A stretch of 32,730 nt of DNA from a virus, in the IMG/VR virus record IMGVR_UViG_3300030106_006370, positions 4,903 through 37,632 of that record; one strand, given 5' to 3'. This document shows positions 2,932 through 32,730 of the stretch, one piece after another (positions within the stretch are counted from its first letter, which is position 1; every line of letters begins with the position of its first letter). The position numbers and the translations under genes were made by a program. The notes beneath the pieces are model-generated. The model was given only the letters and a program-made list of their open reading frames with translations, was not told the DNA's origin and made no database searches.

Positions 2932-2940
2932 GGTTCTCCG

Positions 2941-4683: not shown

Positions 4684-4707
4684 ACGGACCACCTGTGTGG
4701 GTGTGAA

Positions 4708-4977: not shown

Positions 4978-6077
4978 ACTGGAGATGCTCCGAGGGGGCC
5001 GGTGCTCCCTCTGGTTAGAGCGGTGTCCAACGCCTCTGCTTCGTCCACCATGCGCTGCTTTGTTGCGTCGTAGCCGAGGATCTGGCTTGCCTCTGCTTCC
5101 GTGGCACGACCTTCGTCTACCAGTTTCTGAACGAAGTCAGGGTTTCTTCGCATCATCCCAACATAGGAGAACGCGGAGTTAGGGTCGCCCTTGAGCAGTG
5201 TGGAGATACTTATTTTGCCGCGTACTATCCCAGCGTAGACGTCACGGAGGTCGCTAGGTACACCCTCCATGACGCTTTCTTTCGACGCTTCCCGTGCTTG
5301 CTCTGTCCGATAAATTTTCGCACGAGCCGCAGCGGCTTCGGGGCTACGGGCACCGCCGGCTCGCTCAATGTCTGCAAGTTCTTGCTTGGCTTGTTGGAGA
5401 TCTTTATAAGTAGAGAATGCGGGCGCAGCGGGCGCAGCGGGTGCCACATCCGGGGCCCTTTCGGCGGGGGCCTCTGCGGCGGGCGCGGCGGGCGCGGCGG
5501 GCGGTGTAGTAGGACTCACGGGGCTTTCCCTGAGATCGGGAGGTGCCGGCGCAGGATCCGAGGCAGCGGGCCCAGTTGCATCAACCATGTCGGGGCCAGC
5601 AGGGGGTGGCGGTGTGCCGCCACCAGAAGGTCGATAAGACCAGTCTGCGCCGAACTTCATCTTATCGTCTTCGAGGTTCGCAGCGTCGAACAGCGCTTTT
5701 TTCGTTTGCTTCCCGACTACGCCGTCAACCTTTACCCTTCTTTGTTTCTGAAAGTCTTCTACGGCTTGCTTCGTTTGAGGACCAAAGATGCTGTCGGTCT
5801 TGATGTCATAGCCGTGCTCACCCAGAAATTCTTGGAGCTGTTTGACGTCCTCACCCTTCGACCCAACACGAAGAGTACCTACCTTGTCGGAGCCCGCGAA
5901 GGTCATACGTTCTTCAACAGCTGTCGGTGCTTTGCCGGTACGGGCAATGCTATCGATTCGCTCGGCCGTTTTTCGCGGCGCGGCATCGGCCGCACGGGCG
6001 TCTTTCTCAACGGCAGCTTTCTCTTTTGCGAGTTCACTTTTGGGGTCTTTGTCTTTTTTGATCGTGGCAGCAGCCAT
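4974..6077 (-). CDS. Peptidoglycan-binding-domain protein, 367 aa
   Basis: Residues about 68-129 form a PG_binding_1-type domain: LRVGSKGEDVKQLQEFLGEHGY, then SIFGPQTKQAVEDFQKQ and VDGVVGKQTKKAL, with the characteristic G..V..LQ..L and D/S..FG..T..AV..FQ pattern. Before it is a charged helical N-terminus; after it come a Pro/Ala-rich linker (about 150-225) and a helical C-terminal half. No hydrolase domain is visible in this protein. The domain binds murein in many phage endolysins and cell-wall enzymes. Here, between terminase and portal, a virion component that touches the wall, or a partner of a lysis enzyme, is inferred. ATG 6077 is chosen because GGAGA sits about eight bases upstream, whereas an ATG three codons earlier has no spacing. 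It ends overlapping the next start (ATGA). Confidence 0.8.
   Translation of the reverse strand: MAAATIKKDKDPKSELAKEKAAVEKDARAADAAPRKTAERIDSIARTGKAPTAVEERMTFAGSDKVGTLRVGSKGEDVKQLQEFLGEHGYDIKTDSIFGPQTKQAVEDFQKQRRVKVDGVVGKQTKKALFDAANLEDDKMKFGADWSYRPSGGGTPPPPAGPDMVDATGPAASDPAPAPPDLRESPVSPTTPPAAPAAPAAEAPAERAPDVAPAAPAAPAFSTYKDLQQAKQELADIERAGGARSPEAAAARAKIYRTEQAREASKESVMEGVPSDLRDVYAGIVRGKISISTLLKGDPNSAFSYVGMMRRNPDFVQKLVDEGRATEAEASQILGYDATKQRMVDEAEALDTALTRGSTGPLGASPV
5419..5502. repeat. GC-rich 9-bp tandem repeats inside the PG-binding gene
   Basis: Two clusters of 9-bp units lie within the Pro/Ala linker codons of the peptidoglycan-binding-domain gene. GCGGGCGCA occurs twice, with a degenerate third copy, at 5419-5445; GCGGCGGGC occurs three times perfectly at 5476-5502. 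Read on the minus strand they encode repeated Ala-Pro-Ala triplets. They probably arose by slippage and set linker length, and may vary between related phages. Confidence 0.8.
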
Positions 6078-6107
6078 TTTGGTCATCTCCGAGAGAGTAA
6101 GAAGCGT

Positions 6108-7099: not shown

Positions 7100-8749
7100 T
7101 CACCTCAGTTTGGGCGGGCGGTCTGTGGCCGCGAGGTCTCTCCGGCGCATTTTATCGCGATCTCGGTTCAGAAGGTTGAACGGAATCATGCCCGGCTGAA
7201 CTTCTTGCGGCCCCTCGACTGTGGTGTCGGTCTTCTTGTTGCGATCAACACGGGCGCGAAAGCCCTTATGCTTGGCCAGCATCTCCGCTGCCATAATGTA
7301 GGTCCTCGCACGGTCGAAGTGATGGCCGATACCATCTTCGCCGACTGCCCGCTTCGAGAAGTTGCCGTCGTAGCGGAGCAGTTGTTGTAATCCTGGTCGA
7401 GACTTAATCGTGATTTCATGCTCGCGCAGGAGCTTCACCAACATGAACTCAGCCTTGGCGATGCGGATTGCGGTGGCGTACCAACCCGGTTGCCGTTTGC
7501 TGTAGCAGATCTTCGTTCTCAACTCTTTGAGAGCAGTGATGCAACCTGCATGGTTGGACTCAACCACTGCGCGAGCTTTGTTGTAATAGCTGCATACAGT
7601 GTCGATTCTTACCGCGAAGCGATCAGGGTCTTCCCGACCAGACCACACGGCAACTTCTTCTCGACTGTCCTTATCGAAGACGGTCAGCGCACACGGGTCG
7701 CCTGTCGCACCGAAACCCGCAGGGTCGGCGTATAGCTCATAGGTGCGCCCCTCTATGGGCTTGGAGAAGACCCCGCAGCCGTGCATACCCTCTTCTGGGT
7801 CGATCTGGGAAGACGACAGCTGCTCTCGGACGATGTCTTCAGGCATGCGCGGGCGGTCAGCACCCAGCCAACCATCATGGGCGTCGGAGGGGTATTTGCT
7901 GCTAAACAACCGGTTGTCACCGACAAACTCTGAACTGAGTCGAGTACGACGAAAGTAGAGGGCCGCATGGTTCATCCCCGGGTGTCGGCCCATGTACTCT
8001 AGCTCTTCCTCGCTGGGGTCAAAGTCGTCAGGCGGGTCAATCTGGCAGGTTTTATCCAGCCACCACTTCAAAAACAGCGGGTGGAATTGCCCCTCACCTC
8101 GGAGGGCTTCGTGCCACATCCGTTCATGGTAACTACCGGCTTTGCCCGGCGTAGACTCAATGACGAGCTTAGCATTGGGTCGTTTATTGATACCGGGGAA
8201 GAGGTTGATGATAGCTTTCTGCTGGTGGATAGCTTCGCCCAACTCAGTGATGTGCAGTCGGTCGATAGAGTGACCGACAGCGGGGGCCCTGCCCTCAAGA
8301 GACTTGATGGTGATGCGCCCGCCGTGGACGAACTCGATCTCGCGTTTGCTGCCCTTGCTGCCCTTGGCAAGCGGCATCTTTACCGCGGAGGGAAGATTCT
8401 GGTACGCGAAGCGAATACGACGAAAAGCCATCTCAGCAGTGGCATTGGTGTCGGCGATCAAGACACCCTCAACGCCACGCAAGTACATGCAATCGCGGAG
8501 AAGAAGGTGCATTAGTACGACGGTAGTGGCCTTCGCTTGACGGTATTTATTAACGAAGGTCCAACGATTCGCCTCGACTGCTCGAATAACTTCAACCTGT
8601 GTGGGCGTCGGGTCGAGGTACCCAGTGGTCTCGTTCTCTCGAACGATTTGGCACATGCTGACAAAGGCTTCTGGAACAGAAAACAGCTTTTGAATCATAG
8701 CTGCGTCCATGCCTTCTGCGATAACTACCTGGGCCCCTGCTCTTGCCAT
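7100..8749 (-). CDS. terL: Terminase large subunit, 549 aa
   Basis: This is the DNA-packaging motor ATPase and headful or cos nuclease. With the start at ATG 8749, a variant Walker A lies at about residues 68-76 (KYRQAKATT, the phage K.RQ...(S/T) form), Walker B at LHITELGE with catalytic E169, and a coupling-type VIESTPG about 30 residues later. The RNase H-like nuclease half shows ADPAGFG (D342), VVESNHAG (E397) and HHFDRARTY (D479), the expected three acidic positions. ATG 8749 is preferred to an in-frame start at 8806 because AAGGTG lies five bases upstream and the longer form would overlap the previous gene. Length is normal for the family. It heads the leftward operon after a 73-aa gene. 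Confidence 0.93.
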   Translation of the reverse strand: MARAGAQVVIAEGMDAAMIQKLFSVPEAFVSMCQIVRENETTGYLDPTPTQVEVIRAVEANRWTFVNKYRQAKATTVVLMHLLLRDCMYLRGVEGVLIADTNATAEMAFRRIRFAYQNLPSAVKMPLAKGSKGSKREIEFVHGGRITIKSLEGRAPAVGHSIDRLHITELGEAIHQQKAIINLFPGINKRPNAKLVIESTPGKAGSYHERMWHEALRGEGQFHPLFLKWWLDKTCQIDPPDDFDPSEEELEYMGRHPGMNHAALYFRRTRLSSEFVGDNRLFSSKYPSDAHDGWLGADRPRMPEDIVREQLSSSQIDPEEGMHGCGVFSKPIEGRTYELYADPAGFGATGDPCALTVFDKDSREEVAVWSGREDPDRFAVRIDTVCSYYNKARAVVESNHAGCITALKELRTKICYSKRQPGWYATAIRIAKAEFMLVKLLREHEITIKSRPGLQQLLRYDGNFSKRAVGEDGIGHHFDRARTYIMAAEMLAKHKGFRARVDRNKKTDTTVEGPQEVQPGMIPFNLLNRDRDKMRRRDLAATDRPPKLR

Positions 8750-8754
8750 GTGTT

Positions 8755-8760
8755 CACCTT
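8755..8760 (-). promoter_or_regulatory. Ribosome-binding site deciding terminase start
   Basis: AAGGTG on the minus strand is five bases upstream of ATG 8749. The alternative start at 8806 lies inside the preceding 73-aa gene and has no comparable site, so this element fixes the shorter terminase. Confidence 0.6.
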
Positions 8761-8778
8761 GTCCTACAGATGTCAAAA

Positions 8779-9000
8779 CTATGTGGCGTTGTTCTCGTGC
8801 TCCCACGCAGCCTGGCGTCGTTCAAACACCTCTAAGGCAAACTCTATCAGCATCCGGACGACGAACGCACGCTGGACGTTTCTTACCGGAATAGGCCGGT
8901 TTTTATACGTCGCAGCGATATACGGCCGAAGGTCATCGATCCGCTTGAGCGTCCCGCCGAGTAGGCGACAAGACAGTTTGTCTTCGTAGAATGTGGGCAT
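8779..9000 (-). CDS. Small protein upstream of terminase, 73 aa
   Basis: Starting at ATG 9000 (GGAG seven bases upstream), the protein is 73 aa with mixed charge. It is largely helical after a short N-terminal segment: MPTFYEDKLSCRLLGG, then TLKRIDDLRPYIA and VRNVQRAFVVRMLIEFALEVFERR. The short size and the two-helix pattern would allow a ribbon-helix-helix or dimeric helical DNA-binding protein. Its place just before terminase raises the possibility of a small terminase subunit, but that family is normally longer and has a clearer helix-turn-helix. It is the first gene of the leftward operon, 29 bases before the terminase start. Function unresolved. Confidence 0.6.
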   Translation of the reverse strand: MPTFYEDKLSCRLLGGTLKRIDDLRPYIAATYKNRPIPVRNVQRAFVVRMLIEFALEVFERRQAAWEHENNAT

Positions 9001-10223: not shown

Positions 10224-11279
10224 ATGGCTATCTCTACCGAGGTCCTAAATACGACCTACCGGCGCCTCAAGGGTCCCCTCGTCCAGACTTTCCTTCGTCG
10301 GACCCCTTTCCTCGATACACTTGCTACGAACTCTCGTATCCGTAAGAGCATCGACGGTGGTACGACCATCGAGCGCGCCATCATGACTGGCTCGCCCGCT
10401 ACTGGCCGAGGCATCTTTAACGGCACCGAACTTCTCAACCTCACCCGCACGAAGCGGACTTCCCAGGTCAAGGTCGAGCCTCATCGTCTTGCCGCTGCCA
10501 TCGCCATCCCCAACCGGGAGCTGGTGCAGAACAGTGGTCAGATGGCGGTTATGCGCCTGATCGAGAAGTACCCCGAAGCCTTCATGAAGAGCACCGACCT
10601 CTGCCTTGAGTCGTTCTTCCTGACCGGTCGCGCCCCCTCTGGGAACCATGCCTTCACCGCTTCCGCGATGTCTGGCTTTGTGACCCTCAACGGGGACTAC
10701 AGCTCCGGTACCTTGACCGGGACCACTCATGGCCTCTTGGACTTCGCCGCTCCGGCAAGTCAGGTGCAGGAAGTCGAAAGCGTGGAGAAGTCGGAAGCTA
10801 ATGTCTGGTACAACCAGTACGAAGCTATCAGCTCTTGGAACGCTGAGGGTATCCTCAAACTGGGTCAGCTCATTCGTCGCTGTGGGCACTACAGCCTCGA
10901 AGGCAAGCCCTCCATCGGCTTCATGGACCCCGAGTCCATGGCTAACCTTGAGCAGTCCAAGCGTGGGCACGTTCGGGTTGAAGTCGTCGACCAAGCTCAG
11001 GAGAAGGGTGACCTTCACACCATCGAGCACAACGGCGTCATCTTCCACGAGTCCCTCGATATGGACCGCTCGTTGTTCGGCGCCCCGATGTCCAACGGAT
11101 TCGGCTATGTCCTCAACCCGGCTTACTTTGAGATGCCGGTCCTCGAAGAGCCTGAGCTTACCGAGTTTGAAGACATGATCGCTTCGCAGGACGTGGTGGT
11201 TTCCAAGTTCAAGTTCCACGCACAGCTCCTTTGCACCCACCTGGCTGCTCAAGGCGCTTTCACCGGCTCTGCGCTGTAG
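10224..11279 (+). CDS. Major capsid protein (HK97-fold candidate), 351 aa
   Basis: This is the shell-forming protein of the head. Support: 351 aa is within the usual range. An N-terminal helix (TYRRLKGPLVQTFLRRTPFLDTL) is followed by a beta/E-loop-like region (IDGGTTIERAIMTGSP). The spine-helix region (VEPHRLAAAIAIPNRELVQ) contains conserved-looking basic residues, and a central helix-rich part has WYNQYEAISSWNAEGILKLGQ. The late beta part includes VIFHESLDMDRSLFGAPM and ends with VVVSKFKFHAQLLCTHL. Codon use is noticeably enriched in C-ending codons compared with the later genes, consistent with high expression. An AGGA site precedes ATG 10224. It is followed 9 bases later by a second small head protein. 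Alternative calls are few; the specific capsid family is uncertain. Confidence 0.8.
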   Translation: MAISTEVLNTTYRRLKGPLVQTFLRRTPFLDTLATNSRIRKSIDGGTTIERAIMTGSPATGRGIFNGTELLNLTRTKRTSQVKVEPHRLAAAIAIPNRELVQNSGQMAVMRLIEKYPEAFMKSTDLCLESFFLTGRAPSGNHAFTASAMSGFVTLNGDYSSGTLTGTTHGLLDFAAPASQVQEVESVEKSEANVWYNQYEAISSWNAEGILKLGQLIRRCGHYSLEGKPSIGFMDPESMANLEQSKRGHVRVEVVDQAQEKGDLHTIEHNGVIFHESLDMDRSLFGAPMSNGFGYVLNPAYFEMPVLEEPELTEFEDMIASQDVVVSKFKFHAQLLCTHLAAQGAFTGSAL

Positions 11280-19279: not shown

Positions 19280-19996
19280 ATGTCGATGATGGGTATGGGC
19301 TGGGCGATGGCGGGGGCGCAAGCGCTTTCGCACGCCGCGGTTTCCGCTTACGACGCAATGAAGGCCAGGAAAGCGACAAATGCGCTCCTTGCCCGAAAGA
19401 AGAGGCAGCTTCGGGAAACCAGTACCGGAGGTATGGACCCTGGCCGGATGCGTACTCTGCAGACGGCAGGTGCGCTTCAACAGCAGGCGACTCAAGCGGG
19501 TATTGCGGAAGAGGCTGCGCGTGGGACCCAGGGGCGCGGCCTGACATCCACGCAACTGGCTGAACTCTCGGCGGCTTCCGCGATGGGTGCGGCTCAACAG
19601 CAGTCAGAGCTTGACCGGCTTAGCTCGATGGAGGCGATGCAGAACGCCGCGGCGCGGCGGGCGATGCAGGACCAGGTCATGCAGTTGAAATACCAGCGGG
19701 ACATGATCGGGAGGCCAGTCGACGCAGCGGGGCGGACGATCCTTAAAACCAGCGGCGATTACGCTGGTCAGCAGGCAGGGACGATGCAGCCCTCATCGTA
19801 TGGTCAACGACAGGCGGAACAGGCTGCGAAGACTGAATATACGATCACAGCGGGGCAAGCGCAGCCAGGTGGAATGGACCCCGATAGTCTGGCTCGATTG
19901 CAGGCCCAACTTGCACAGCAACAAGCTGCCGCTCAATTTGGTCAGCCCGTGTATAACTATGGCCCACCGCAGTCAACGATGTCGGGGTCAAACTGA
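19280..19996 (+). CDS. Putative internal virion (ejection) protein, small, 238 aa
   Basis: This is an Ala/Gln-rich helical protein with little aromatic content after the first third: AMKARKATNALLARKKRQLR, QQATQAGIAEEAARG, then GRGLTSTQLAELSAASAMGA and a Gln-rich tail (QAQLAQQQAAAQFGQ). The N-terminal MSMMGMGWAMAGAQALSHAA is hydrophobic and Gly/Ala-rich, like T7 gp14 and P22 gp7 type ejected proteins that insert into the outer membrane. Length matches T7 gp14 (about 196 aa). It is followed by two larger proteins in the gp14-gp15-gp16 order and overlaps the next start by one base. Call rests on composition and order. Confidence 0.68.
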   Translation: MSMMGMGWAMAGAQALSHAAVSAYDAMKARKATNALLARKKRQLRETSTGGMDPGRMRTLQTAGALQQQATQAGIAEEAARGTQGRGLTSTQLAELSAASAMGAAQQQSELDRLSSMEAMQNAAARRAMQDQVMQLKYQRDMIGRPVDAAGRTILKTSGDYAGQQAGTMQPSSYGQRQAEQAAKTEYTITAGQAQPGGMDPDSLARLQAQLAQQQAAAQFGQPVYNYGPPQSTMSGSN

Positions 19997-22530
19997 TGAG
20001 TGCGCTTAATAGTTATCTCGCTTACACGAAGCAGGCTTCGGAGAAGAGTTACCAAGATATGCGCCGCTTCGGTTTAGCCGAGGAGCAGGCTCGCAAAGAA
20101 CAAGAGCTGCAAGAAGTGCGTATGCGGTTGCGGATCATAGAGGCTGAGCAGAAGTTTGCGGAGCAGGCGCGGCGCGGTAACCTTCAGGAAGCGAAGGCTG
20201 GGCGAGATGACCTACAGTTTTTCTTCTCAAAACTCTTAGAAGATGAGGAGGGCGTGAAGAAGGATGCGGAGAGGCACGCCAAAGACGCGAATACAGAACT
20301 CGATAAGCTGAAAAAGAGTGGCGCTAAGTTCAGTGACCCGGCGGCACAACTAACGACGGCAGCGGGAAAGCTGCTTGCTGCCGCGAAAGAGGCGAAAGGA
20401 AAAGAGGAGCTAACAGCCTTAGCTGATGCGCTGTTTGCCGTGCCCACTCTGTTTGAGGTGACGGACTCGGCTTCCGTGCCCGCGCTCAGCCCGGTTAGCC
20501 GGAAACACCCTAACTTCCTCGTCCCCGAGTCGTTTCTTGGCCAGCTTCCCGGGAACGTGAACCTCGATTCAAGCCCTGCCGATATTCGCAGGGCGTTGGG
20601 GTCCTATATAGACTCGGGCGCGATTGAGACCACCCTCGGTTATCTGGGCCAGTTCAGGGACCAGAAACAGGCGTGGTTGGCTGAGCAGGAGAGAAATAAG
20701 GACGCAATCACCGAGCAAGAGGGTATTGTCAGCGGCGCCGCCGCAGTGCTGTCCGCTGAAACGCCTGAGCAACTTAGCGGTAGCTACATGCGCCTACTCA
20801 GAGATGCCGGGGAACTGAAAAAGCTACAGGACGACATCTTGGGGGTCGGGGTAGACGAAACTGAGAGTTACCGAAGCCTAACAGGGCTGTATGGCGGTGA
20901 CGCCGGGGGCTTATCGCCGATGCAGAAGCACATGGCGGCGATGGGCGGGCAAATGCCTCCAGGCGTCCCCCAAGAGAACGCCACCGCCGTTCAACAACTG
21001 GTCGCTACTCAGAAGCGCCTGTCGACGGATCCCAGCTTCTTGAAGTGGGCCGCCCAGAACGGTATCTCAGTGCAGAGAGACGCGGTTGTTCCCGTCAACG
21101 TATTCATGCGCTGGAATAACGAAGTAATTGGGAAAGGCCGTCTCGGGTGGCGCTACAAAGGCAAACGAGGCCGTGACCTAAGAGGAACGGGAGCTGTCTT
21201 TGAGGTCACGTACAGAGCTGGCGATGACTTCGACATCGGGCTTCGGAGCGCCGGTGGCGCACAGTTGTTTGCTGTCGACGAGCGCGGCGACTATCTGAGT
21301 CCAGACAGGGTAAGCAACAAGCACCGCGATGACTTCGCAGAGGCGCAGGTTGTGACTGCTGACCTGGACGATGCCCAAACTCGGGGCGAGATCGTGTCGC
21401 TGTTATCGACTGCCGGCGAAGGCGGTCGTGAGATGGCTAAGGCTATCGGCCAGGCATACGCGGGTGACTCGAAGGGTGACTTCCAGGTCTTCCTCGACAA
21501 GTCAGGTAAAGCCGCACTCGTAGGCGCTAACGGTAGGGTCGTGAAGACGGGCGGGTTTGACGCGGAGACTGCCGCGTTGTCTGACGCAGCAAGGGATGTG
21601 AACGGTCCCTTTGTCGTCGCGGGTACGTCCAGCGCTATGCAGGACAGAATGGGCGGGAATGCGTTGGGGAATCTGGACGGTTTTGCCGAAGGCCAGACTG
21701 CCGACTTTGGTGTGTACGTACCCAAGGGCCTGCGCCTGGTCACGAAAGAGCCGACGGCAACGCTTATCGCTGAGGAAGCTCTTCATCGAGCCGGCTCTCC
21801 GGGCGATGAGACCGTGTACTTCTGGGATGACAAGGCCACGGGGACGAGACAATCAATCACCCTCAAAGATGAAAGTACAACTGGTAAAGAACTTTTCGAC
21901 GCGAAGCAGCAGCTTGAACGCGGGGACAACAGGTTCCGTGTTCTTGGTCGGGAGCGCAGGCGAGTCAAGTTGGCCAAGCGTATGTCCCCGGCTGACCCCG
22001 CAGCCAGGAGGGCGAGGACACCAGGGAGCTTGGAGGTGCGCCCGTTCACAGCGGACGAGCTGCGTAAGCGTAAAGAAGCACCCTCGGCTCCCCCTGAGCT
22101 GGCACCAACCCCCGCCCCCGCTGCGCCGGAAGCTGAGCCCCCTGTCGTTGAGGAACCGCCGCCGGTCACGACGGATGCCCCGGAACTCCCCAAGAAGCCA
22201 AGTGGTAAGAAGCCAAGCGGCACAAGACCGAGCGGTGAGAAGCCGCGTGGTACTGCGGATCTCATGTATGTCCCCGAGGGCTTCGAGGCAAAGCCGGCCG
22301 CAGACGTCACCGACGTGACTCAGACAATAGACGAGGCTACAAGTAGGTCCGTCGTGGCCGAGTCTGACCCGGAGACGGGGGCGCAGACCGTCAGGACAGA
22401 CTTAATGCGGGACGCAGACGCCGAACGTGAGAGATTAGAGCGAGAGCGAGAGAGGGAGAGGGAGCGGAAACGGCAGAGGCTAATCGCGGCGGGCGGCAAC
22501 GGCGCGGCATCAGGGGGCGGTGGTGGCTGA
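19996..22530 (+). CDS. Putative internal virion (ejection) protein, large, 844 aa
   Basis: The N-terminal third is helical and coiled-coil rich (QARKEQELQEVRMRLRIIEA, EGVKKDAERHAKDANTELDK). A middle alpha/beta part follows (about 350-690), and the last 150 residues are low-complexity: Pro/Ala/Glu-rich, then four KPSG-type pentapeptide repeats (733-752) and a very charged ERERERERKRQR stretch near the C-terminus. Size and position match T7 gp15 (about 747 aa), the middle ejection protein. The start overlaps the previous stop (ATGA) and the giant gene begins inside its 3' end. No enzymatic motif is seen. Ejection role is inferred. Confidence 0.65.
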   Translation: MSALNSYLAYTKQASEKSYQDMRRFGLAEEQARKEQELQEVRMRLRIIEAEQKFAEQARRGNLQEAKAGRDDLQFFFSKLLEDEEGVKKDAERHAKDANTELDKLKKSGAKFSDPAAQLTTAAGKLLAAAKEAKGKEELTALADALFAVPTLFEVTDSASVPALSPVSRKHPNFLVPESFLGQLPGNVNLDSSPADIRRALGSYIDSGAIETTLGYLGQFRDQKQAWLAEQERNKDAITEQEGIVSGAAAVLSAETPEQLSGSYMRLLRDAGELKKLQDDILGVGVDETESYRSLTGLYGGDAGGLSPMQKHMAAMGGQMPPGVPQENATAVQQLVATQKRLSTDPSFLKWAAQNGISVQRDAVVPVNVFMRWNNEVIGKGRLGWRYKGKRGRDLRGTGAVFEVTYRAGDDFDIGLRSAGGAQLFAVDERGDYLSPDRVSNKHRDDFAEAQVVTADLDDAQTRGEIVSLLSTAGEGGREMAKAIGQAYAGDSKGDFQVFLDKSGKAALVGANGRVVKTGGFDAETAALSDAARDVNGPFVVAGTSSAMQDRMGGNALGNLDGFAEGQTADFGVYVPKGLRLVTKEPTATLIAEEALHRAGSPGDETVYFWDDKATGTRQSITLKDESTTGKELFDAKQQLERGDNRFRVLGRERRRVKLAKRMSPADPAARRARTPGSLEVRPFTADELRKRKEAPSAPPELAPTPAPAAPEAEPPVVEEPPPVTTDAPELPKKPSGKKPSGTRPSGEKPRGTADLMYVPEGFEAKPAADVTDVTQTIDEATSRSVVAESDPETGAQTVRTDLMRDADAERERLERERERERERKRQRLIAAGGNGAASGGGGG
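22192..22251 (+). repeat. Four 15-bp tandem repeats coding KKPSG-type pentapeptides
   Basis: Four consecutive degenerate 15-bp units encode KKPSG, KKPSG, TRPSG and EKPRG (residues 733-752 of the 844-aa protein). They form a basic, flexible linker ahead of the charged C-terminus. Codon variation between units suggests an old expansion under protein-level selection. Confidence 0.8.
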
Positions 22531-25500
22531 TTATCTTTCTCACATTCGGAAACGTGCATACTCTCCGTATTACCCGGATGTGCCGAAAGAGCCTGAACCG
22601 GAACCCGCTCTTGTTGGAGTTCCGCAAGAGCCTGTAGAGGTTGAGGAACCTGTAGCTGCGCCTTCGTTTGATGCGGGTAAGCCAGCAGCTGCCGACGACG
22701 CGGGTACTCCGGCGGTTGATTACGCTGCTGAGTTCTTGCAGACAACAGCCCCTGCCGCCTCCGCCGCAGGGGTGAGCACGCTCCCCGCTATCTTCAACGA
22801 GATTGATCCCGCTACTGTCGCAGAGCAAGTGGGTCGGCGTACTATTGAAGAGTTGAAGAAAGCAGCACGGGTTTCCCAGGCGCAAAATCAGAGCGATGAC
22901 TTTGACTTAGATGAAATCAGTAACTACTTAGTTGCCGGTGCTTTAGACACAGGGATGCAGCAGCACTTCGCGACGACTCCGGACACGATGCGTGCGCTTG
23001 CGGAGAAAATCGAGTCCGCGGATACGCAACTTGGTCGAGTTCCCCAGCGGGTTGATACCGTCGATGATGTGATACGCCGGACGTTGACCGATAACGTCAA
23101 GGATCAATTCATAAAGCAGGCAGGTGGCGACAAAGCAGCTGGCCTTTCTCAGTACAGAGAGTTCCTTGGTCTGTACCAGGACGCCAGTAACACCAAGAGA
23201 GACAAAGAGATCTCAGACTTACGCGAGGCGGAGTCTGCTTTGGCCGACGAGTATGCTGGCCTGCTGTTTAGGAAGCGGGGGCTGAGCCTCAGCACCATCG
23301 CACACGAGGCTCTGAAGAAGGGCAGAGACATCGCTGGCGAAGGCATCATTGCCGTTGACCGGTTGACTGAGACCTGGACGCCGGGGCTGATCGACGTCGT
23401 TACCGCGCCGGTCATTCCGAAAAAGGCTGAGCTATTGGTCACGCCGGAGGAACGCGAGGAAGAGATTTCGGCTGCGGTAACCGGTACACTCGACGAGGCG
23501 ATCCTCCGTGATGCCAGCGTAGAGAAGCTGACGCTCAAGGAGAGTCCCGCAGAGATACCCCCGGCAAAGCTGTTGATGCCTTCGGCAGACGCACAGCGTC
23601 GCTTGGCGAGTAAAGAAGGTGCTCGCTATGTGGTCTATGACGATTACAGCGGTAAGCCGATCCGCAGCTATGAAGAGGCGATAGGTACGCCCCACATCGG
23701 GTACGGTCACGCGATTCAGTCCGCAGAGGAGCGGGAACTCTTTAAGCAGTTCTTGGCGGGCTCCGGTCAACAGATGGCACCGGACAGCGCGAAGAAGCTC
23801 TTTGGCTATGACATCGCCCGTCACGCTGAACCCCTGCAGCTGATTACTGCGCCGGCGACCCAGCAGATGTTGGATGCAGTACACAGCATGACCTACCGAT
23901 TGGGTGTACAGTCGTCTGAGGTAAATAGGGCGATTGAGCTGATTAATCGCGGTGATTACGTGGGTGCCGCAGCGCAAATCAGAAACGTAAAGCCCACACA
24001 CGCCGGCCCCGCGAACGCAGAGCTTGAGCGGGCGATCTCTGCCAGACATGCGGCAGAGGCGGACCTGTTTGTTTCCGGTGGCATCTTCAGGACGGAAGAC
24101 GACTCCGTATCTGTGACTCCGCAGCAGCAGTTGTTGGAAGAAGAGGATGTCGAACGAAAGGCGCGCTCCCAGGCCGATTACGGGGACCCATCCCGGCAAG
24201 TCCCGTTCTCTGATATGGAACTGCCAGAGGATCCGCTGGTAAACCCCAGTGAGCTTCGAGAACAAGTCGCAGAAACTCTGCAGACGAACATCGTCGAGCT
24301 TGACCCCATCGGGGTTACCGACATGTTTGACGACACCATTCGAAACCCGTTCATTTCGAAGTCGAGCGAACGTGGCGCACAGTTAGCTCAACAAAGTATC
24401 GCGGCACTCGATGACAGTGATCGCAGCGCACTCGAAGTCGCCGCGAGCTTACCTATGGGCAGAGGCTTTAAGTCTCTCCACAGCTACCTGATGAGACAGG
24501 AGCAAGCGAAAGCAAGATGGGCTGACCTGACACCACAGGAGCGCGCTGATATTGCGAAAGAGGCCAAGTCGAAAACACTTGCGATGATCGCAGACGCGAA
24601 GACGGCAGAGCTGTGGGTGTCTCCTTCCTACACAAGCTACGATGAGTTGCTTAGCAGCCGACCACCGACGGACGAGGAGTGGTCGCTGGGCAAAACGCTG
24701 TGGGGTGTCGGTTTCGACTCTCCGAGCTTCTTGCCCTACATGGGGTCAGGTAGCGTCTTGTCACCACAGCTGGAGATTGTCGGCCGAGACAATGACGGCA
24801 ACATCCTGGTCAGGCAGGTGGGAGCAACCCTTACTGCTCTTGATTTGCTTGACGCAGTTCCTGTTGTGGGTCAGAGCTACGTGATCGGGGCCCTTGAGAA
24901 CTTTGTTTCGAGTCCGATTGAGTCTTTGAAGGCATACGGGTTCAACCCGGTCGCCGCTATCCATCAGGCGGGCTTGCAGGGGATCGCGGAGCGCCGAAAC
25001 TTTGCCGAAGTGTTTATGGAGTTGGGCGCAGGCGGTATCGACTGGGCGATGTCGACGGACGCAGGTAAGGCGGCCACCGCGAAATTCGCGGATTCCCCGG
25101 TGGGTGACGTCTTTTTCGACCCAGAGGAAGAGCTGGATCAACGTATCCTCAAATCAAGAGACAGCGCCCGAGTGGTCACGTCGTTCCTCGGGGCGGGCGT
25201 GGGTCTTGGCGCAGCTATCTTCTACCCCTTTGATGGTTTACTCGTAGGAAGAGGCGCCTTTAAGTCTTTCTATGGTGCCTTCGAGGACCTATCCGACTTG
25301 ACGCCCGGGGTCGCCGCATCGATCAAGGCACAGACGCCCGAGATGATACGTGCGGCTACGTTGATTGAAGATGCTATTGCAGAGCTGGTTCTTGTGGGTG
25401 AGGCCGTCGGTGAGGGCACTGGGGGCAACGCCAAAGAGCTTAAGAGTCTCATCGCAGTTGATGAGCAGGCACTGAATAAACTTAGTGAAGCCGGCAAAGT

Positions 25501-28500
25501 TATGGCGGATGTTCGGCTGCGGGCGTCTGAGGGCGCACGCTGGGTCGACAGGTTGGATTCGTATGAGTTGAACACTGCGCCGGAGAACTTGCAGGCGATT
25601 GCCCGTCCTGGTCAGGTCTACGCGAGGGACCAAGCGTTAGCTCAGAAGATCGATGAGTTGATCAATGCGGCTATCGATGAGGCTAAGTCACCAACCGCTT
25701 CCGACGAGGTCAAAGAGATCGCGGCGCGTCTTGAGGGTCGACGGCAAAATATCGAGTCACTGTTTACTCTGCATCCGTCAGAGGCGATACGCATAGGTCG
25801 CGACCCGGAGACCTCTGGGCGAGTTCCTACCAAGGGCCTATACAGCTTTGACGAGCATATTCTACAACTGAGAGATCTTCAGAAGTACGTCAACATCGCG
25901 GATGACTTTGGTTCTCTCAAGGCGATGCGTTTACAGCGAGCCACTTCTGTCGATGGGAAGTCGCTTCCAGATCAATTACGCGAACTGCTCGTCATGGAGG
26001 AGGGGGTTGTTTCGAATAAGAGTGCGACCGCTTTGGCGAAAGCACGAGGTATTACGCTTGAAGAAGCCAAGAAGTTAGTCGTCGAAGAGAACGTCTCCGC
26101 AGTGAAGACTCTCGAAGAGGCGATGAAAGACAGCAGATTATTTGACCCTGATGCTGGTGTACTACCCGCGCTTCGGCACCAGCTGTCGGGAGCAAGCAGC
26201 ACCCCCGGTCATTTGACCGGAGCGCATCTCCTTGGAAAGGCCCAAGGCACCGACGTGACCGAGCTACTGAGTAGGCTTGAAGACGGTGTGCAAGCTACGA
26301 ACCTCAAGTTGTCTGCGCCTATCGAAGCTATCGACAAGGCATACCAAGCGGTCTACTTCAACCTCGCGGCACGCCGGCGCGGGATTATCAAACTCGCTGA
26401 GCGGATGGATGCAGATTCGGTGTCGAAGGCGCTGCGGCCTCGACTCCAGAGGGCCGTGCGGACATTTGGTCGGACGTTTGCGCGAGAGCTTGCTTCTGCC
26501 CGCTTCGGTTTTTCGGGTATGTCTGCGAACACAACACGTATGATGATCGACGCGGCTGCAGACCAAGACGGTGATCAGCTCTTCTCGTTCTTGGCGAAGA
26601 AGATTAATGAGCCCTACATCGCTCGTCAGCGCGCTGCGGGTGTCGATGAAGACGAGATTGAAGCGAATCTGTACACGTCTGTAGAACTTGAGACGATGGT
26701 TCGTGAGCAGTTGGCCCAAAACCGAGCGCTGCCTTCAGAGCAGCAGAAGCCGCTCATCCAGATCAGTCGTCCTGGTTTCAGTATCCCTCGTGGTTTACTC
26801 GACACTCGCGCACCTGTTGTGGCGGATGCGACCAAGGCGTTCATGCGTGAGCGTGATGGGTTCTTCTCTGCTTTCGGTAAGGTCCCAGACCCCGCGACGG
26901 GGGAGGTCAGGGTCATGACCGCGGGCGAGAAGCGCGCTGTCGAGCACATAGTAGATGCCATTGCACGCGAAGCCGCGGGCGTTCTTCCTGACGACTCGGT
27001 TGTCGACGTAAATCGTAAGTTGACCGAGTTCTATACGACGGGTGTCCGTGCAGTCGCGAAGGCACCTTTGATCCAGAGGCGGTCTAAAAAGTTCATCTCC
27101 GCAGTAAAGACGAGACAGCAGATTTTGACTGCTGAACGAAGAGCTGCAGGTGAAGCCGAGGAGGCCCTGTCGCCAGCGGCTACTTGGAAAGCCGCGCTAT
27201 CCGAAGTGCTGGAGTCCGGCGAGTTTCAGGCTGCAGAGCTGCTTCTGCTGACAGGGCTTAACGATCACCAGCTATCCCGCCTGCGGCAAATGGTAGTCCC
27301 CGGGCCGACGGGCGGCAGAGCGGGCGCGGCCAAGTTTTTAGCGCAGCAGGATGACGTGGTCGTAAAGCCCAGCCGGGAGCCGGTGCCATTGTCGCCAGCG
27401 CCTTCACTCTCGGATCAGCTCGTCGAGTTTGTGAAAGCGGAGCCCCGCACAAAGAAGGCTATCGGGGAGAAGTTTGGTCTTCGCGGGAAGAAGCTCACCG
27501 AGTTCATCAGCAAGGTGGCGGATACCGGGGCGATCTCCGTACCTGCGCGTGGGAAAAAGGCCAAGTTCATCGGTGAGGCGCCAGAGGCTGCTCCTGCTGC
27601 TGCTGCGAAAGCACCTACCCCCGCGCCGGTTGTGCGGGTGGACACTGATGACAAGTATGTGCTGAAGGCTCGGGAGATGTTCGACGAGGGCAAGACTCCT
27701 CGTGCAGCAGAACGTGTGCGAGAGGCCATCGAAGATAACGTGGGCGCGGAAGCCGCAACAAAGTTCATCGATGAATACAAAGCACTAAGAGATGCTGCTG
27801 TCCGGGCCCGAATCCAACAGGATGCTGCCGAGGTTGTCGAAGAGGCTGCTCCTGCTGCTGCGAAGGCACCAGATGCTAAGGCAGCGGCTAAGGTGCTGGA
27901 GCTATCCGAGGACCCAGAGTTAGTCGTCAAAGTAAGCGCTGCGGAAACCGAAGCTATCGCGGCGAAGCTCAACAAGCTGGTGACTGAGGAGCCCGGCGTA
28001 GCCGCTGTCGTCAATTGGCTGCAAACGACGGATAGCCTTTCTGCGGGGACGCGGCTGAACACACGAACGATCATCGAGGGTGTAGGTGACATAACGCAAA
28101 CTCAGGCACGCAGCGCTCTTCGCTCGTTACAAGACGCAGGCATTTTAGAGAAGTCAACTCGGGGCGGTCGGCCGCTGCACTCGGACTTCCAATCGATTCT
28201 TGACCAATTCTCGGAATCGTTTGACGAAGACTTCATGCTGAGCTTCATGCGGAATCCGGAGACAACGTACACTGTCGCTGAGATCAAGCCGATGTTGGCG
28301 GAAGTCCGCCCTGACTTAGAGAAGATCGACGAGAAGCTTGCCGCTTTAGCCGAGTCGGCGGGAGTACTGGCTGTTCGCTCGCGTGACGGCAGTCTTCGGG
28401 GATTCACTGTTCGCAAAGTCGATGACGTGCAGGACCCTGCCTTTCGCGACGTAATCAGTGCGGCTGCGCGGGACAGGGAGGTCGCCTCCAGCGCTGCGCT

Positions 28501-31500
28501 CCGGGCATTGTCCACGTCAGAGATTGCCGAAGAGGTCGCGGCTGCTGAGCGGCAGATTGAGCAAAGCACTCGGATTATCTCTCGACTTGACGAGCTTATC
28601 GGCGGCCTGGACCCGCAAGCAGATAAGGTGCGTATCCGTCGGCTAAACCGGATGAAGGAGCAACACGGTAGCCGAATTAAGCAGCAGAGGGCGTTCGTTG
28701 AGGCGACTGCGCCGAAGCCATTGGCTGTCCCCGAAGCTGCGGAGACTGCCAAGGGGGGCACTTTCTTCTTGCGAGACGGTAGCGCTGTTTTGCTCGCCTT
28801 CCGAAATGCTGACGTGACGACCGGGATCCATGAGCTTGCCCATGTTCTTCGTCGATACCTACGGGCACCAGGCGACAGGGACGTGCTTGTTAACTGGATG
28901 AACGACCACCTCGGCACGAAGGGCATAGAAGGTCGCGTTAAGTTCGATGACCGCGGGCATCTGGTTCTTACCGACGACGAAGGTGCTGTAGATGCTCTTA
29001 TCGAGGCGGAAGAAGTCTTCGCCCGCGCATTTGAGCGGTATCTGGCTGAAGGTACGGCACCTGACAATAGACTGAAGGCTGCCTTTAAGCAGATAAAAGA
29101 GCTGTTCAGGCTGGTCTACAACCGGATCAAGGGCACCGACATCGACGTCGACATCAGCCCGGAAATGTACGACCTATTTGACCGCGTATTTGGGTCGACG
29201 AAGCAGCTCGATTCGGCTCGACTATCCGCGCTATCTGACGCGCTAAAGAAGCGAGAGGACGCGCTCCGGTCGATGCGCTTGACCGAAGAAGAAGTCAAGG
29301 CGGCGCGGGCGGGCAAGCTCTCCGAGACGGCGCGTGTCGCAGGTCGCATACCCGAGGAGGCTGTCGAGGAATCTACAGTGGTAGGTAAGCTGCGGCAGTT
29401 CTGGATTGACCGGGACAAGCTGAGAGAGACCACGAGCGTCCAGCGAGAGCCTGTGAGCGAGGCGGATGCGCTTCGTTCAGCCGGGTTGGCGAGGGTCATA
29501 CCGGTGGCACGGGGTTTGACTCGTACTTTGCTGAGGGCCCCGATATTGGGAGGCGACGCAGACGAGCTTATTCGCGCATTCCCCGAGGCTATTCGGCCGT
29601 CACTCCGATCCATCACTCGTGCGTATGACAACTTCAGCTCTGCATACGTGGACGCACTTGCCAGGAGAAAACTCGCTGCGACAAAGGCTGGCAAGAAACT
29701 CCACCAAGCTCAGCTCTTCGGTCTTTTAGATGGCAAGGTCGTGGTTGGGGCTCAAGGCAGAACTGTTCGAGGCTCTGGGCGGCGACGTTCCGACTTGTTC
29801 TTTCAAACATTCGACAACTTCATAGAGCGCATACTCGCCAAGGACGTCAGCGTACTGACAGACTCTGCGGAAGATTGGTTGAAAGCTGTAAATGAGAACC
29901 ACAATGCCGGTAAGTCTGTTCGAAATGTCGGGGCAACCGTCACAAGTGCGGGCGGTAAGCGTGTAAGCCCGTTGGCGCGCCTGTTTGTCGGGGTTTCGAC
30001 CCGGCTGGATAGTTCCGACACTCTCCGGCTCAAGCCGTCCGCAGCAGCCGCGATTCAAACGGAAGCTAAACGAATAAGTAAGGGTAAACCCCCCGCGGCT
30101 GAGCAAGAGTTCGAGGTCATGCGTTTGATGCTAACGGCAGCTGGCGGGGATCCGGGGCAGCCGTTGATGGACAACCTCGGCGCCTTGTTTATGTTCTTCA
30201 GCGGAAACGCACGAGTGCCTGTGCGGGTCGGGGAAGAGGTTTACTATCTTTCTCGTGCGGACATGCCGCCAGGCATAGGCACGGCCGAGGCTCTGGTCAA
30301 AGGTGTTGACTTGAAGCGAGGCGACGTTTCCGCGAGGGTCCCGGGGCTTGAGCAGCTCGCTAACTCTCGCGTCGTTGACAGCGTCATGTACGCGATGGGG
30401 GTTAGTAGCGAAGTCTCTGAGATGTTTGACGCGGCGAGAACGAGCCGCCTGGGTATCAGTTACGATGATTTTCGGATTTATGGGCGCGGCGTAGCGGGTG
30501 AGGCGCTACTGAATGCAGATGAGCAGCAACGGTTTGCAGAGCTACGGAAGAGGTTCGGGCAAGACGCCGACTTTGGCCTTTCTCCAGACAGTACCGGAGA
30601 CTACTACCTACCAGGTTTCGCCCGTAGGAGTATCTCAAGGTCAGTTGACGACGCTATCAAGCAACTGAGTGGGTCCGACGACGGGGCTGCGAAGCGCGGC
30701 ATTTTCGTGTCTTTGCTTCAATACCTAAACATATCCATTGTCTTTGGGACTATCTCTGCGCGACCTCAGTTCTTGTTCATGAGCAACATCGACAATGGCC
30801 TTCAGCTCGGTACGATGACGGGGTCGCGCAATGGTGCCGTGTCTGCCGCTCGCGTCGCTGGCTCGACAATCGCCGCGGCCATCCGTTTGCCGGGCGGGAT
30901 CGTAGACTTATTGAGAGTTGCTGACATCGCTGACGCGGCTCTGCGTACCGAGAAGATGGCCCCGATTCGTAAGAAGCTGGCTGACCTTTCGGGCCAGGAA
31001 GTTGACGTAGCGTCCGCTCGTCGCGCCATCGATAATCTTGCACGAGCAATGGGGGACAAGTTCGGCGGTGTCATTGACCGGTTCTTCGGCGGGTCAAAAT
31101 ACAGATTCGAAGTGAACCCGATCATGGACGCAGCTCCAGGCGGCCTTGTCTACGGCGGTAACTACTACAGTTTTGTGGACTTGCGCCAAATTTTCTTAGA
31201 AGAAGGTATCTACAGCACCGCGTACAAAGAGATCAAGGCGTACCTCGGTGACAACCCTTCACCTCTCTCAATCCGCAGCGACTTGTTCAGGTTGGCGAAA
31301 GACCCGGAAAGCGGGATTACGATGCAGGCCGTACAAGAAGTTGAGTCTATCGTAGAAGCGACACGTACCTTATTTGGCAAGACCGTGGTACGAACTGTTG
31401 ACGAACTCTTCCTACACGGGGCGAGAGTCGCGGATGCTTGGGGTGAAACTGAGCGAACCGGGAGCGCTGTGTCGCTAATGGAGCAAGGGTTCTCTCCGCG

Positions 31501-32730
31501 AGAAGCGGCGCGGCTTACGGTCACTTCCCTGTACGACTACCGCGGCAGCATGACGAAAGGGGATCATGCAATAGCGTACAAGTTAATCATGCCGTTTTGG
31601 TCCTTCAGGAAGAACGCAAACAATCAGGTCATCAACCTTCTGGGCAGCACTCGCGGAACCTACATCCTCGGTGTCCTCCGTCGTGCCAGTATATACGGCG
31701 CAGAGACGCTCACTGACGTCTTGTTTGAGACGATCATAGCGCCCTACGGTGTCCAGCCGACCGCTTTGGACAATGATCAATCCGCCTTCTACTACGGTTT
31801 ACGTGACATTATCGAGAACGGTCTCGGTGACGAGGTAAGTGACGAAGACTTAGGGCGCTATCGCGAGTCTTTGCCCCAGGATAAGCGCGGTATCTCCCGC
31901 GAAGCTCTCTTAGATTACGATTTCGCCGGTTGGACTATACGAAACGGGTACAACGGGTACTCGCGTGTCCCCGAACGGGTTCAAGCTGCGGTGAGGGGCA
32001 TGCTGCTTGCGCGTTTCGACGTCGGCAAAGTGGGCGCCGATTACGTCACCTTGAAGAAGGGCCTGGTGAACCACCAACTGCTGCAGCAGTATGTGCAAGA
32101 AGGGCTACAGGGTGCTGTGATTAGTGAGGCGGATCGTTCTGGCTTACCGTCGTGGATGAGCTTGAAACCCACTATCTCCGTACCGCTGCCAGTGATGACC
32201 GAAAGCGCAAAAGCAACGGTGGCGGCGGGCGGCGCGGCGGCGGTTCACTTGATTTTGCCTGACAGCTTTGCCATCGCGTCGATGAGCCAGGGTGCGGCTA
32301 TGATCATGACCGCGGTTGCGATAGCGGACCAGGCCAAAATCCGGCTTTTCGACGACGAAGGCGTAGAAGTCGATCTGATGCAGCTAGCAGAGAACTCGCT
32401 ACGTTCTTTAGTCGACATCGACCAGACGTCAATCGGCGTTGAGTTCATTGAAAGTGCGCGGGAAGCACTCGCAGAGGGCGGCGGTCGTCCTGTCCGACTT
32501 CATCCGCTTGTTGCTCGATCATTATCTCCAGGCGTGGTCTACCCCTATGCCGGCGACCAAACTGGCCCGGTGCATGCCATTGACAGCGCGGTGAAGAGGT
32601 CTGCTGTTGCTGTCGGAAAGGCGCTTGATCCGGTGGCGTGGGTGCCTGGGTATGAGCAGGATCTCGACATGACGAAGACGGTCCCGGCGCCCCTACGTGT
32701 CGTCTTGGACCGAAACCGCAAGCGCGTCGT
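22523..32730 (+). CDS. Giant polyvalent virion protein with GH24 lysozyme and HExxH domains, partial (>=3402 aa)
   Basis: One frame runs from GTG 22523 to the window edge with no stop, so the protein is at least 3402 aa. GTG 22520 is an alternative start; AGGGGG five bases before 22523 favours the latter, and a stop at 22481 limits the frame upstream. Domains: Pro/Glu/Ala-rich N-terminus (to about 85); GH24 lysozyme (about 358-516) with E365, D373/D374, the HIGYGH block and the closing ARHAAEADL helix; hydrophobic Gly-rich segment 884-909; three winged-helix-like segments (about 1631-1684, 1826-1892, 1901-1965); HELAH zinc site at 2103-2107 with E2163/E2164 as likely third ligand; PFWSFRKN motif at 3024-3031; hydrophobic stretch about 3233-3270. 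By order it stands where T7 gp16 would be. Inferred role: ejected, wall-cutting, multi-domain infection protein. Confidence 0.9.
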   Translation, partial: MADYLSHIRKRAYSPYYPDVPKEPEPEPALVGVPQEPVEVEEPVAAPSFDAGKPAAADDAGTPAVDYAAEFLQTTAPAASAAGVSTLPAIFNEIDPATVAEQVGRRTIEELKKAARVSQAQNQSDDFDLDEISNYLVAGALDTGMQQHFATTPDTMRALAEKIESADTQLGRVPQRVDTVDDVIRRTLTDNVKDQFIKQAGGDKAAGLSQYREFLGLYQDASNTKRDKEISDLREAESALADEYAGLLFRKRGLSLSTIAHEALKKGRDIAGEGIIAVDRLTETWTPGLIDVVTAPVIPKKAELLVTPEEREEEISAAVTGTLDEAILRDASVEKLTLKESPAEIPPAKLLMPSADAQRRLASKEGARYVVYDDYSGKPIRSYEEAIGTPHIGYGHAIQSAEERELFKQFLAGSGQQMAPDSAKKLFGYDIARHAEPLQLITAPATQQMLDAVHSMTYRLGVQSSEVNRAIELINRGDYVGAAAQIRNVKPTHAGPANAELERAISARHAAEADLFVSGGIFRTEDDSVSVTPQQQLLEEEDVERKARSQADYGDPSRQVPFSDMELPEDPLVNPSELREQVAETLQTNIVELDPIGVTDMFDDTIRNPFISKSSERGAQLAQQSIAALDDSDRSALEVAASLPMGRGFKSLHSYLMRQEQAKARWADLTPQERADIAKEAKSKTLAMIADAKTAELWVSPSYTSYDELLSSRPPTDEEWSLGKTLWGVGFDSPSFLPYMGSGSVLSPQLEIVGRDNDGNILVRQVGATLTALDLLDAVPVVGQSYVIGALENFVSSPIESLKAYGFNPVAAIHQAGLQGIAERRNFAEVFMELGAGGIDWAMSTDAGKAATAKFADSPVGDVFFDPEEELDQRILKSRDSARVVTSFLGAGVGLGAAIFYPFDGLLVGRGAFKSFYGAFEDLSDLTPGVAASIKAQTPEMIRAATLIEDAIAELVLVGEAVGEGTGGNAKELKSLIAVDEQALNKLSEAGKVMADVRLRASEGARWVDRLDSYELNTAPENLQAIARPGQVYARDQALAQKIDELINAAIDEAKSPTASDEVKEIAARLEGRRQNIESLFTLHPSEAIRIGRDPETSGRVPTKGLYSFDEHILQLRDLQKYVNIADDFGSLKAMRLQRATSVDGKSLPDQLRELLVMEEGVVSNKSATALAKARGITLEEAKKLVVEENVSAVKTLEEAMKDSRLFDPDAGVLPALRHQLSGASSTPGHLTGAHLLGKAQGTDVTELLSRLEDGVQATNLKLSAPIEAIDKAYQAVYFNLAARRRGIIKLAERMDADSVSKALRPRLQRAVRTFGRTFARELASARFGFSGMSANTTRMMIDAAADQDGDQLFSFLAKKINEPYIARQRAAGVDEDEIEANLYTSVELETMVREQLAQNRALPSEQQKPLIQISRPGFSIPRGLLDTRAPVVADATKAFMRERDGFFSAFGKVPDPATGEVRVMTAGEKRAVEHIVDAIAREAAGVLPDDSVVDVNRKLTEFYTTGVRAVAKAPLIQRRSKKFISAVKTRQQILTAERRAAGEAEEALSPAATWKAALSEVLESGEFQAAELLLLTGLNDHQLSRLRQMVVPGPTGGRAGAAKFLAQQDDVVVKPSREPVPLSPAPSLSDQLVEFVKAEPRTKKAIGEKFGLRGKKLTEFISKVADTGAISVPARGKKAKFIGEAPEAAPAAAAKAPTPAPVVRVDTDDKYVLKAREMFDEGKTPRAAERVREAIEDNVGAEAATKFIDEYKALRDAAVRARIQQDAAEVVEEAAPAAAKAPDAKAAAKVLELSEDPELVVKVSAAETEAIAAKLNKLVTEEPGVAAVVNWLQTTDSLSAGTRLNTRTIIEGVGDITQTQARSALRSLQDAGILEKSTRGGRPLHSDFQSILDQFSESFDEDFMLSFMRNPETTYTVAEIKPMLAEVRPDLEKIDEKLAALAESAGVLAVRSRDGSLRGFTVRKVDDVQDPAFRDVISAAARDREVASSAALRALSTSEIAEEVAAAERQIEQSTRIISRLDELIGGLDPQADKVRIRRLNRMKEQHGSRIKQQRAFVEATAPKPLAVPEAAETAKGGTFFLRDGSAVLLAFRNADVTTGIHELAHVLRRYLRAPGDRDVLVNWMNDHLGTKGIEGRVKFDDRGHLVLTDDEGAVDALIEAEEVFARAFERYLAEGTAPDNRLKAAFKQIKELFRLVYNRIKGTDIDVDISPEMYDLFDRVFGSTKQLDSARLSALSDALKKREDALRSMRLTEEEVKAARAGKLSETARVAGRIPEEAVEESTVVGKLRQFWIDRDKLRETTSVQREPVSEADALRSAGLARVIPVARGLTRTLLRAPILGGDADELIRAFPEAIRPSLRSITRAYDNFSSAYVDALARRKLAATKAGKKLHQAQLFGLLDGKVVVGAQGRTVRGSGRRRSDLFFQTFDNFIERILAKDVSVLTDSAEDWLKAVNENHNAGKSVRNVGATVTSAGGKRVSPLARLFVGVSTRLDSSDTLRLKPSAAAAIQTEAKRISKGKPPAAEQEFEVMRLMLTAAGGDPGQPLMDNLGALFMFFSGNARVPVRVGEEVYYLSRADMPPGIGTAEALVKGVDLKRGDVSARVPGLEQLANSRVVDSVMYAMGVSSEVSEMFDAARTSRLGISYDDFRIYGRGVAGEALLNADEQQRFAELRKRFGQDADFGLSPDSTGDYYLPGFARRSISRSVDDAIKQLSGSDDGAAKRGIFVSLLQYLNISIVFGTISARPQFLFMSNIDNGLQLGTMTGSRNGAVSAARVAGSTIAAAIRLPGGIVDLLRVADIADAALRTEKMAPIRKKLADLSGQEVDVASARRAIDNLARAMGDKFGGVIDRFFGGSKYRFEVNPIMDAAPGGLVYGGNYYSFVDLRQIFLEEGIYSTAYKEIKAYLGDNPSPLSIRSDLFRLAKDPESGITMQAVQEVESIVEATRTLFGKTVVRTVDELFLHGARVADAWGETERTGSAVSLMEQGFSPREAARLTVTSLYDYRGSMTKGDHAIAYKLIMPFWSFRKNANNQVINLLGSTRGTYILGVLRRASIYGAETLTDVLFETIIAPYGVQPTALDNDQSAFYYGLRDIIENGLGDEVSDEDLGRYRESLPQDKRGISREALLDYDFAGWTIRNGYNGYSRVPERVQAAVRGMLLARFDVGKVGADYVTLKKGLVNHQLLQQYVQEGLQGAVISEADRSGLPSWMSLKPTISVPLPVMTESAKATVAAGGAAAVHLILPDSFAIASMSQGAAMIMTAVAIADQAKIRLFDDEGVEVDLMQLAENSLRSLVDIDQTSIGVEFIESAREALAEGGGRPVRLHPLVARSLSPGVVYPYAGDQTGPVHAIDSAVKRSAVAVGKALDPVAWVPGYEQDLDMTKTVPAPLRVVLDRNRKRV
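27584..27870 (+). repeat. Duplicated Ala/Pro linker coding repeat
   Basis: Near-identical stretches at 27584-27615 and 27842-27870 share GAGGCTGCTCCTGCTGCTG and continue to GCACC, differing by one extra triplet and one synonymous base. Both encode EAAPAAAKAP-type linkers of the giant protein. They bracket about 75 residues lying between the first and second winged-helix-like segments, which suggests modular insertion or duplication of linkers. Confidence 0.7.

Follow-up and report, generated by a model that had tools for sequence, protein, structure and literature searches.

A giant polyvalent protein of approximately 3,505 residues, probably an ejection protein, in an uncultivated phage lineage

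Introduction

The three internal virion proteins of phage T7, gp14, gp15, and gp16, are all ejected into the host (PMC8954989), as are gp52, gp51, and gp50 of phage N4 (PMC12633501). T7 gp16 contains an N-terminal murein hydrolase, which is a lytic transglycosylase, and a membrane segment, and homologues of gp16 diverge very far (PMC8954989). N4 gp50, the virion RNA polymerase of this member of the Schitoviridae, is the largest of the three ejection proteins, which consist of 150 (gp52), 644 (gp51), and 3,500 (gp50) residues (PMC12633501). It possesses an HExxH domain at residue 2228, followed by a large, mostly helical C-terminus; encapsidation requires the region with this domain, and gp50 is packaged without cleavage (summarised in PMC5512222). 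The polyvalent proteins defined by Iyer et al. in 2017 are multi-domain proteins that combine a zincin-like metallopeptidase with a lysozyme and are encoded beside virion genes, and autoproteolysis has been proposed for them in general (PMC5512222).

Here we describe a giant protein encoded in a window of 32,730 nucleotides, which comprises bases 4903-37632 of a 44,722-b IMG/VR virus record. A first-pass annotation of the window had proposed a polyvalent protein carried in the virion, in which wall entry is joined with possible host-directed functions. The giant links two literatures, those on podovirus ejectosomes and on polyvalent proteins, in a phage group without a match among isolate phages.

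Results

The giant frame on the plus strand (22520/22523-32730) runs for 3,402-3,403 codons without a stop inside the window, in agreement with the 3,402 or more codons read in the first-pass annotation. Its candidate start codons are GTG at position 22520 and GTG at 22523, with a G-rich stretch upstream, and its 5′ end overlaps the preceding 844-aa gene, whose stop is at 22530. At the base composition of the window, a stop-free run of this length has a P of ~1e-56. The codon-position GC pattern is even along the whole frame, and none of the other five frames stays open for more than 337 codons. Chance is therefore excluded. The right edge of the window is a 10-N scaffold gap. When the contig was extended across this gap in search of the stop, as the annotation had suggested, the same frame stayed open for another 98 codons, ending in a TAA (record position 37939), and the total is 3,505 codons with the gap included; the exact length varies with the real size of the gap. 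The 98 post-gap residues align in frame with the C-termini of relatives (E 8.6e-6 and 0.002); thus, the end of the giant is real, the true gap length aside. The giant frame is a real gene of approximately 3,505 residues.

The giant is the final gene of the structural cassette, located after the capsid and tail genes. The portal protein, a marker of the lineage (2941..4692), and the terminase large subunit (7100..8806; PHROG TerL, E 1e-171 to 1e-180 with relatives) are encoded on the minus strand, together with a 370-aa protein with a peptidoglycan-binding domain that lies between them (4974-6086). The plus-strand cassette begins with the major capsid protein (10224..11279; PHROG major head protein, E 1e-84 to 1e-89 with relatives). 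Its tail genes include a 722-aa protein conserved in relatives (14209-16377), which partially matches phrog_511 'internal virion protein' (E 4e-9). The last three genes encode proteins of 238 (19280..19996), 844 (19996..22530), and 3,505 residues (22520..32730 and on past the window). Four relatives likewise have the portal and terminase genes leftward. Rightward they have the capsid gene and tail genes, followed by a gene for 170-286 aa, one for 964-1,410 aa, and the giant. Homology is clear for the portal, terminase, and capsid genes of these four relatives and for several others. The 844-aa protein shows marginal sequence similarity to its counterparts there, and none was detectable for the 238-aa protein. 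The 238- and 844-aa genes may be likened to those of gp14 (outer-membrane pore) and gp15 (tunnel protein) by place and size only. A peptidoglycan-binding domain similar to that of the 370-aa protein was also found within the 1,410-aa gp15-like protein of one relative (L135). Tail-fibre-like and virion-structural-like proteins are encoded on the minus strand at the left of the record (L003:784-2904 and L003:3017-3841).

The murein hydrolase domain noticed earlier in the giant is a GH24 lysozyme domain at residues ~360-520 (23597..24079, plus strand; Pfam PF00959, Phage_lysozyme, E 3e-9). It also matches the PHROG endolysin and lysozymes/endolysins in the PDB (among them 9kbs, E 2e-10, and 6et6, E 1e-8). 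On our reading of the sequence, Glu366 and Asp375 fit the E-x8-D spacing of T4 lysozyme, with Glu366 as the putative catalytic residue. A His directly precedes IGYGH in the giant, at the position of the catalytic Thr26 of T4 lysozyme; because of this replacement, GH24 activity is uncertain. The hydrophobic stretches reported for the giant are real, and one of them is conserved in relatives. A hydrophobic, glycine-rich segment at residues 889-909 (25184..25246, plus strand) is predicted from its hydropathy to insert into a membrane.

The zincin motif was located as HELAH at residues 2104-2108, within a zincin-like metallopeptidase domain at residues ~2080-2235 (28757..29224, plus strand). This region matches phrog_9880 and the giants of phages Mel-JY33, Nsp-JY18, vir555, Lbo-JY46, and LS06-2018-MD07, and more weakly Bbp10 of BPP-1. 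HExxH and the downstream glutamates, invariant E2165 and E2172, are kept in a six-way alignment. An AlphaFold2 model of the core, with pLDDT values of ~80-96, has a beta-beta-alpha...alpha core. Foldseek found nothing significant with this model, and the only known zincin listed by VIA-align was lethal factor, whose catalytic domain aligned over 87 residues at a low score (Z 4.2), a match that is consistent with a zincin fold. The lethal factor superfamily is the one reported for such domains by Iyer et al. (PMC5512222).

Several winged-helix-like segments had also been proposed. One stretch, at residues ~1845-1900 (28052..28219, plus strand), gave weak, sub-threshold matches to several wHTH families (S19e, DUF4423, HTH_CodY, and FaeA) and may be a winged helix; the presence of several such segments is only weakly supported. 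No confident profile match was obtained for residues 910-2040. A match to LPD1 (E 0.046) is below the cut-off, and none of ART-PolyVal, LPD23, and PBECR5 was above threshold in the window giant; these domains occur only in relatives. The mostly helical C-terminal domain (residues ~2600-3505; 30317..32730 on the plus strand and on past the window) is conserved in the alignment of relatives. It had no match in Pfam or PHROGs, and its model is of low confidence (mean pLDDT 58). An iterated search pointed to residues 257-364 being repeated at 1476-1586, but the match covered just 47 residues at 28% identity and was dropped.

Single-sequence searches with the giant over viral and genome contigs, and searches of bacterial genomes, detected no relative; the relatives were found by alignment-based searches. 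The zincin alignment retrieved at least 324 viral contigs, and the C-terminal alignment retrieved 33 loci, or 43 when deepened. The C-terminal profile matches all 44 of the IMG/VR records scored. Giants of the relatives have 2,418-4,788 residues (median ~2,936 over 34 frames that are seemingly complete or nearly so, some of which may be shortened by contig ends). They share only ~20-30% identity, whereas the window portal is 29-55% identical to that of each of the 18 records tested, which indicates faster evolution of the giant. Among 50,697 public phage records, none matched the portal or the C-terminal domain. Judged from these comparisons, the phage belongs to an uncultivated lineage, and the giant is a member of a family that had no name before, with the wall-cutting part and other cargo swapped between phages. 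Most of the long relatives are 65-76 kb; therefore, the 44.7-kb record is probably incomplete. The longest giant among the relatives (4,788 aa) was found in L170 (G001). In another relative (G016; L169, L115), the giant frame is open at both contig ends, with 4,225 and 1,514 codons, which possibly form one longer protein; no exact terminal repeat was found that would join them into a giant of ~5,700 residues.

Iterated profiles identified three recurring parts of the window giant: module 1 (residues ~741-840; 24740..25033, plus strand), which is present in the giants of 18 relatives, the zincin with its extension (~2080-2370), and the C-terminal domain. The conserved order in the family is module 1, the most hydrophobic stretch, the zincin, and the C-terminal domain of ~900 residues. 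In the 18 relatives, the top hydrophobic 21-residue window of the giant, or one within 0.2% of the top, is located 69-97 residues downstream of the module 1 start and is often accompanied by a PD motif; the corresponding distance in the window giant is 139 residues. The spacing between the zincin and the C-terminal domain is nearly constant (~500 residues). N-terminal to module 1 is a wall-hydrolase slot, in which three unrelated hydrolases were found: Phage_lysozyme2 in six records, Peptidase_M23 in two, and GH24 in the window giant only among the records examined. The stretch from the hydrophobic segment to the zincin is the variable region of the family. It contains ART-PolyVal in two relatives (residues 1026-1214 and 1345-1513), and LPD23, PBECR5, and GNAT domains are also known in the family by their presence, irrespective of position. 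These comparisons support an internal virion protein of the polyvalent kind that is ejected and has a layout resembling that of N4 gp50.

The HExxH motif is intact in 14 of the 39 scorable members of the lineage, including the window giant and L115, which was counted as HExxH with its motif misplaced in the family alignment. In the other 25 it is replaced by sequences such as RAIGK, LEISK, and RGISR. The domain itself is kept despite the loss (E 1e-23 to 1e-53 in the first 26 members scored). On a tree of the C-terminal domain, which is a quick tree with a long branch for the window protein, the trait requires six changes, of which well-supported branches force at least four. HExxH is kept in 80 of 81 other zincin loci, which were fetched via the pattern downstream of HExxH and include a few members of the same lineage; this fraction is biased upward because similarity to an HExxH query determined the ranking of the loci. 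The repeated loss with retention of the domain indicates that zincin conservation is not explained by proteolysis alone. No mention of recurrent HExxH loss was found in PMC5512222, and such loss sets this family apart from the polyvalent proteins described there.

Discussion

The last three genes of the window have the same size order as gp14-gp15-gp16 of T7 and gp52-gp51-gp50 of N4. The giant closes the cassette as the largest of these three genes, and it has a murein hydrolase domain near its N-terminus. It shares this arrangement with T7 gp16 (PMC8954989), whose membrane segment may have a counterpart in the conserved hydrophobic segment, but it is 2.7 times longer, with an added zincin and cargo region, and has a lysozyme instead of a lytic transglycosylase. 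No PHROG, Pfam, or PDB match links it to gp16 of T7 or P22. In the comparison with N4, only 17 motif columns align to the C1 HExxH domain, and hhalign gave no credible alignment between the C-terminal domain and N4 C2.

Counterparts of the zincin are found in the same slot of Bordetella phage BPP-1 (Bbp10), Microcystis phage Mel-JY33 (annotated 'lysin'), vir555, and LS06-2018-MD07, whose giants have homologous zincin domains. In BPP-1, vir555, and LS06-2018-MD07, the zincin-bearing giant is encoded two genes after an annotated internal virion protein. However, the C-terminal domain common to BPP-1, Mel-JY33, and vir555 is not detectably related by hhalign to that of the window giant, and the BPP-1 group differs in cargo (Bbp10 has 2,052 residues). 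The 'lysin' genes of Mel-JY33 (L004:11775-23813) and Nostoc phage Nsp-JY18 (L009:3775-15813) each encode a 4,012-aa giant. As these giants are located in the gp16 slot, the label is probably misleading.

In its sequence, the window giant shows the main testable features of the 2017 polyvalent proteins (PMC5512222). Unrelated activities, those of a GH24 lysozyme and a zincin, are predicted in one polypeptide, and the HExxH helix is followed by the downstream glutamates. ART-PolyVal, LPD23, and PBECR5, known from polyvalent proteins, are carried by its relatives, whereas the window giant has no LPD above threshold. The earlier proposal of a polyvalent virion protein fits the gene position, the homologues, and the swappable domains and is thus partly supported.

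We consider it quite probable that the giant belongs to a set of three ejection proteins in a podovirus-like phage, as the largest of them, and fills the role of T7 gp16 and N4 gp50. Packaging, ejection, membrane insertion, and every activity in the following model are taken by analogy from T7 and N4. The giant is probably packed in the virus particle, where it would lie above the portal inside the capsid, and at infection it is probably ejected through the tail into the bacterium. Its lysozyme, near the N-terminus, would open the murein, and the hydrophobic segment after module 1 would insert in the inner membrane. The remainder, with its swappable cargo, would then enter the cytoplasm and be part of the conduit for the DNA. 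The zincin and the C-terminal domain would make up the conserved back end, whose simplest function would be in packaging, folding, or oligomerisation, with zincin proteolysis optional across the family. In favor of this reading are the gene order shared with the four relatives, N4, and T7, the slot of the BPP-1 group giants, the three hydrolases of the N-terminal slot, the conserved hydrophobic segment, the cargo of the relatives, and the nearly constant spacing behind the zincin. Counting against it are the negative sequence comparisons with T7 gp16 and N4 C2, the likening of the 238- and 844-aa neighbours by place and size only, the low model confidence of the C-terminal domain, and the His in the GH24 domain.

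Could the giant instead be an N4-type virion RNA polymerase that has diverged beyond recognition? The size likeness remarked on in the first-pass annotation is apt (3,505 versus 3,500 residues), and the position of HExxH (2104 versus 2228), the helical C-terminus that follows, and the gene order are also similar. Nevertheless, we regard this as very improbable. The polymerase slice of N4 scored 1,255 bits against phrog_2206 as a positive control, whereas the corresponding slices of the window giant and three relatives had no match. The giant did not match the solved N4 polymerase structures, and residues 901-2040 aligned to N4 RNAP with an hhalign probability of only 0.1. Thus, as the annotation had also noted, no polymerase is detectable, and on these comparisons the giant is not a virion RNA polymerase; it has in its sequence the GH24 lysozyme in addition to the features likened to gp50. 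A late lysis protein, namely an endolysin with extra domains, would account for the endolysin-like GH24 domain and for the 'lysin' annotation of the Mel-JY33 and Nsp-JY18 proteins. This explanation is extremely doubtful in view of the length of the giant, its conserved hydrophobic and C-terminal modules, its place as the final gene of the structural cassette, and the separate 370-aa peptidoglycan-binding gene.

A variant compatible with an ejection protein is that the zincin of the packed giant is a protease, which cleaves the giant either inside the head or once it has entered the cell. The intact HELAH and glutamates of the window giant, the prevalence of HExxH in the other zincin loci, and the autoproteolysis proposed for polyvalent proteins (PMC5512222) are in its favor, and it is possible, although we would not expect it. 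Cutting may still occur in the window member; however, it cannot be needed across the family because 25 of 39 members keep the domain without HExxH. The simplest interpretation of this loss, together with the encapsidation requirement and uncut packaging in N4, is a role in packaging or structure, and the conserved role of the zincin domain may be structural. We tentatively extend this to the view that the zincin 'hub' of phage polyvalent proteins serves primarily for packaging or structure, having repeatedly become a pseudopeptidase in this lineage while fixed before a new C-terminal domain, and that the family is a general cargo-delivery chassis. If true, an uncultivated phage group would have a chassis composed of a hydrolase slot, a membrane segment, a cargo slot, a zincin, and a C-terminus.

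With the giant as a probable ejected protein, the family reveals which parts of such a protein are fixed and which are exchangeable, and with these parts mapped, cargo becomes recognisable by position. The repeated loss of HExxH provides a natural test of which function, protease or scaffold, belongs to the domain that is commonest in phage polyvalent proteins.

The record contains N scaffold gaps at L002:10634-10643, L002:12581-12590, and L003:4889-4902, and the window spans exactly from gap to gap. The gap at L002:12581-12590 interrupts a primase/helicase, whose 300- and 389-aa frames are successive parts of a 705-760-aa protein in the relatives.
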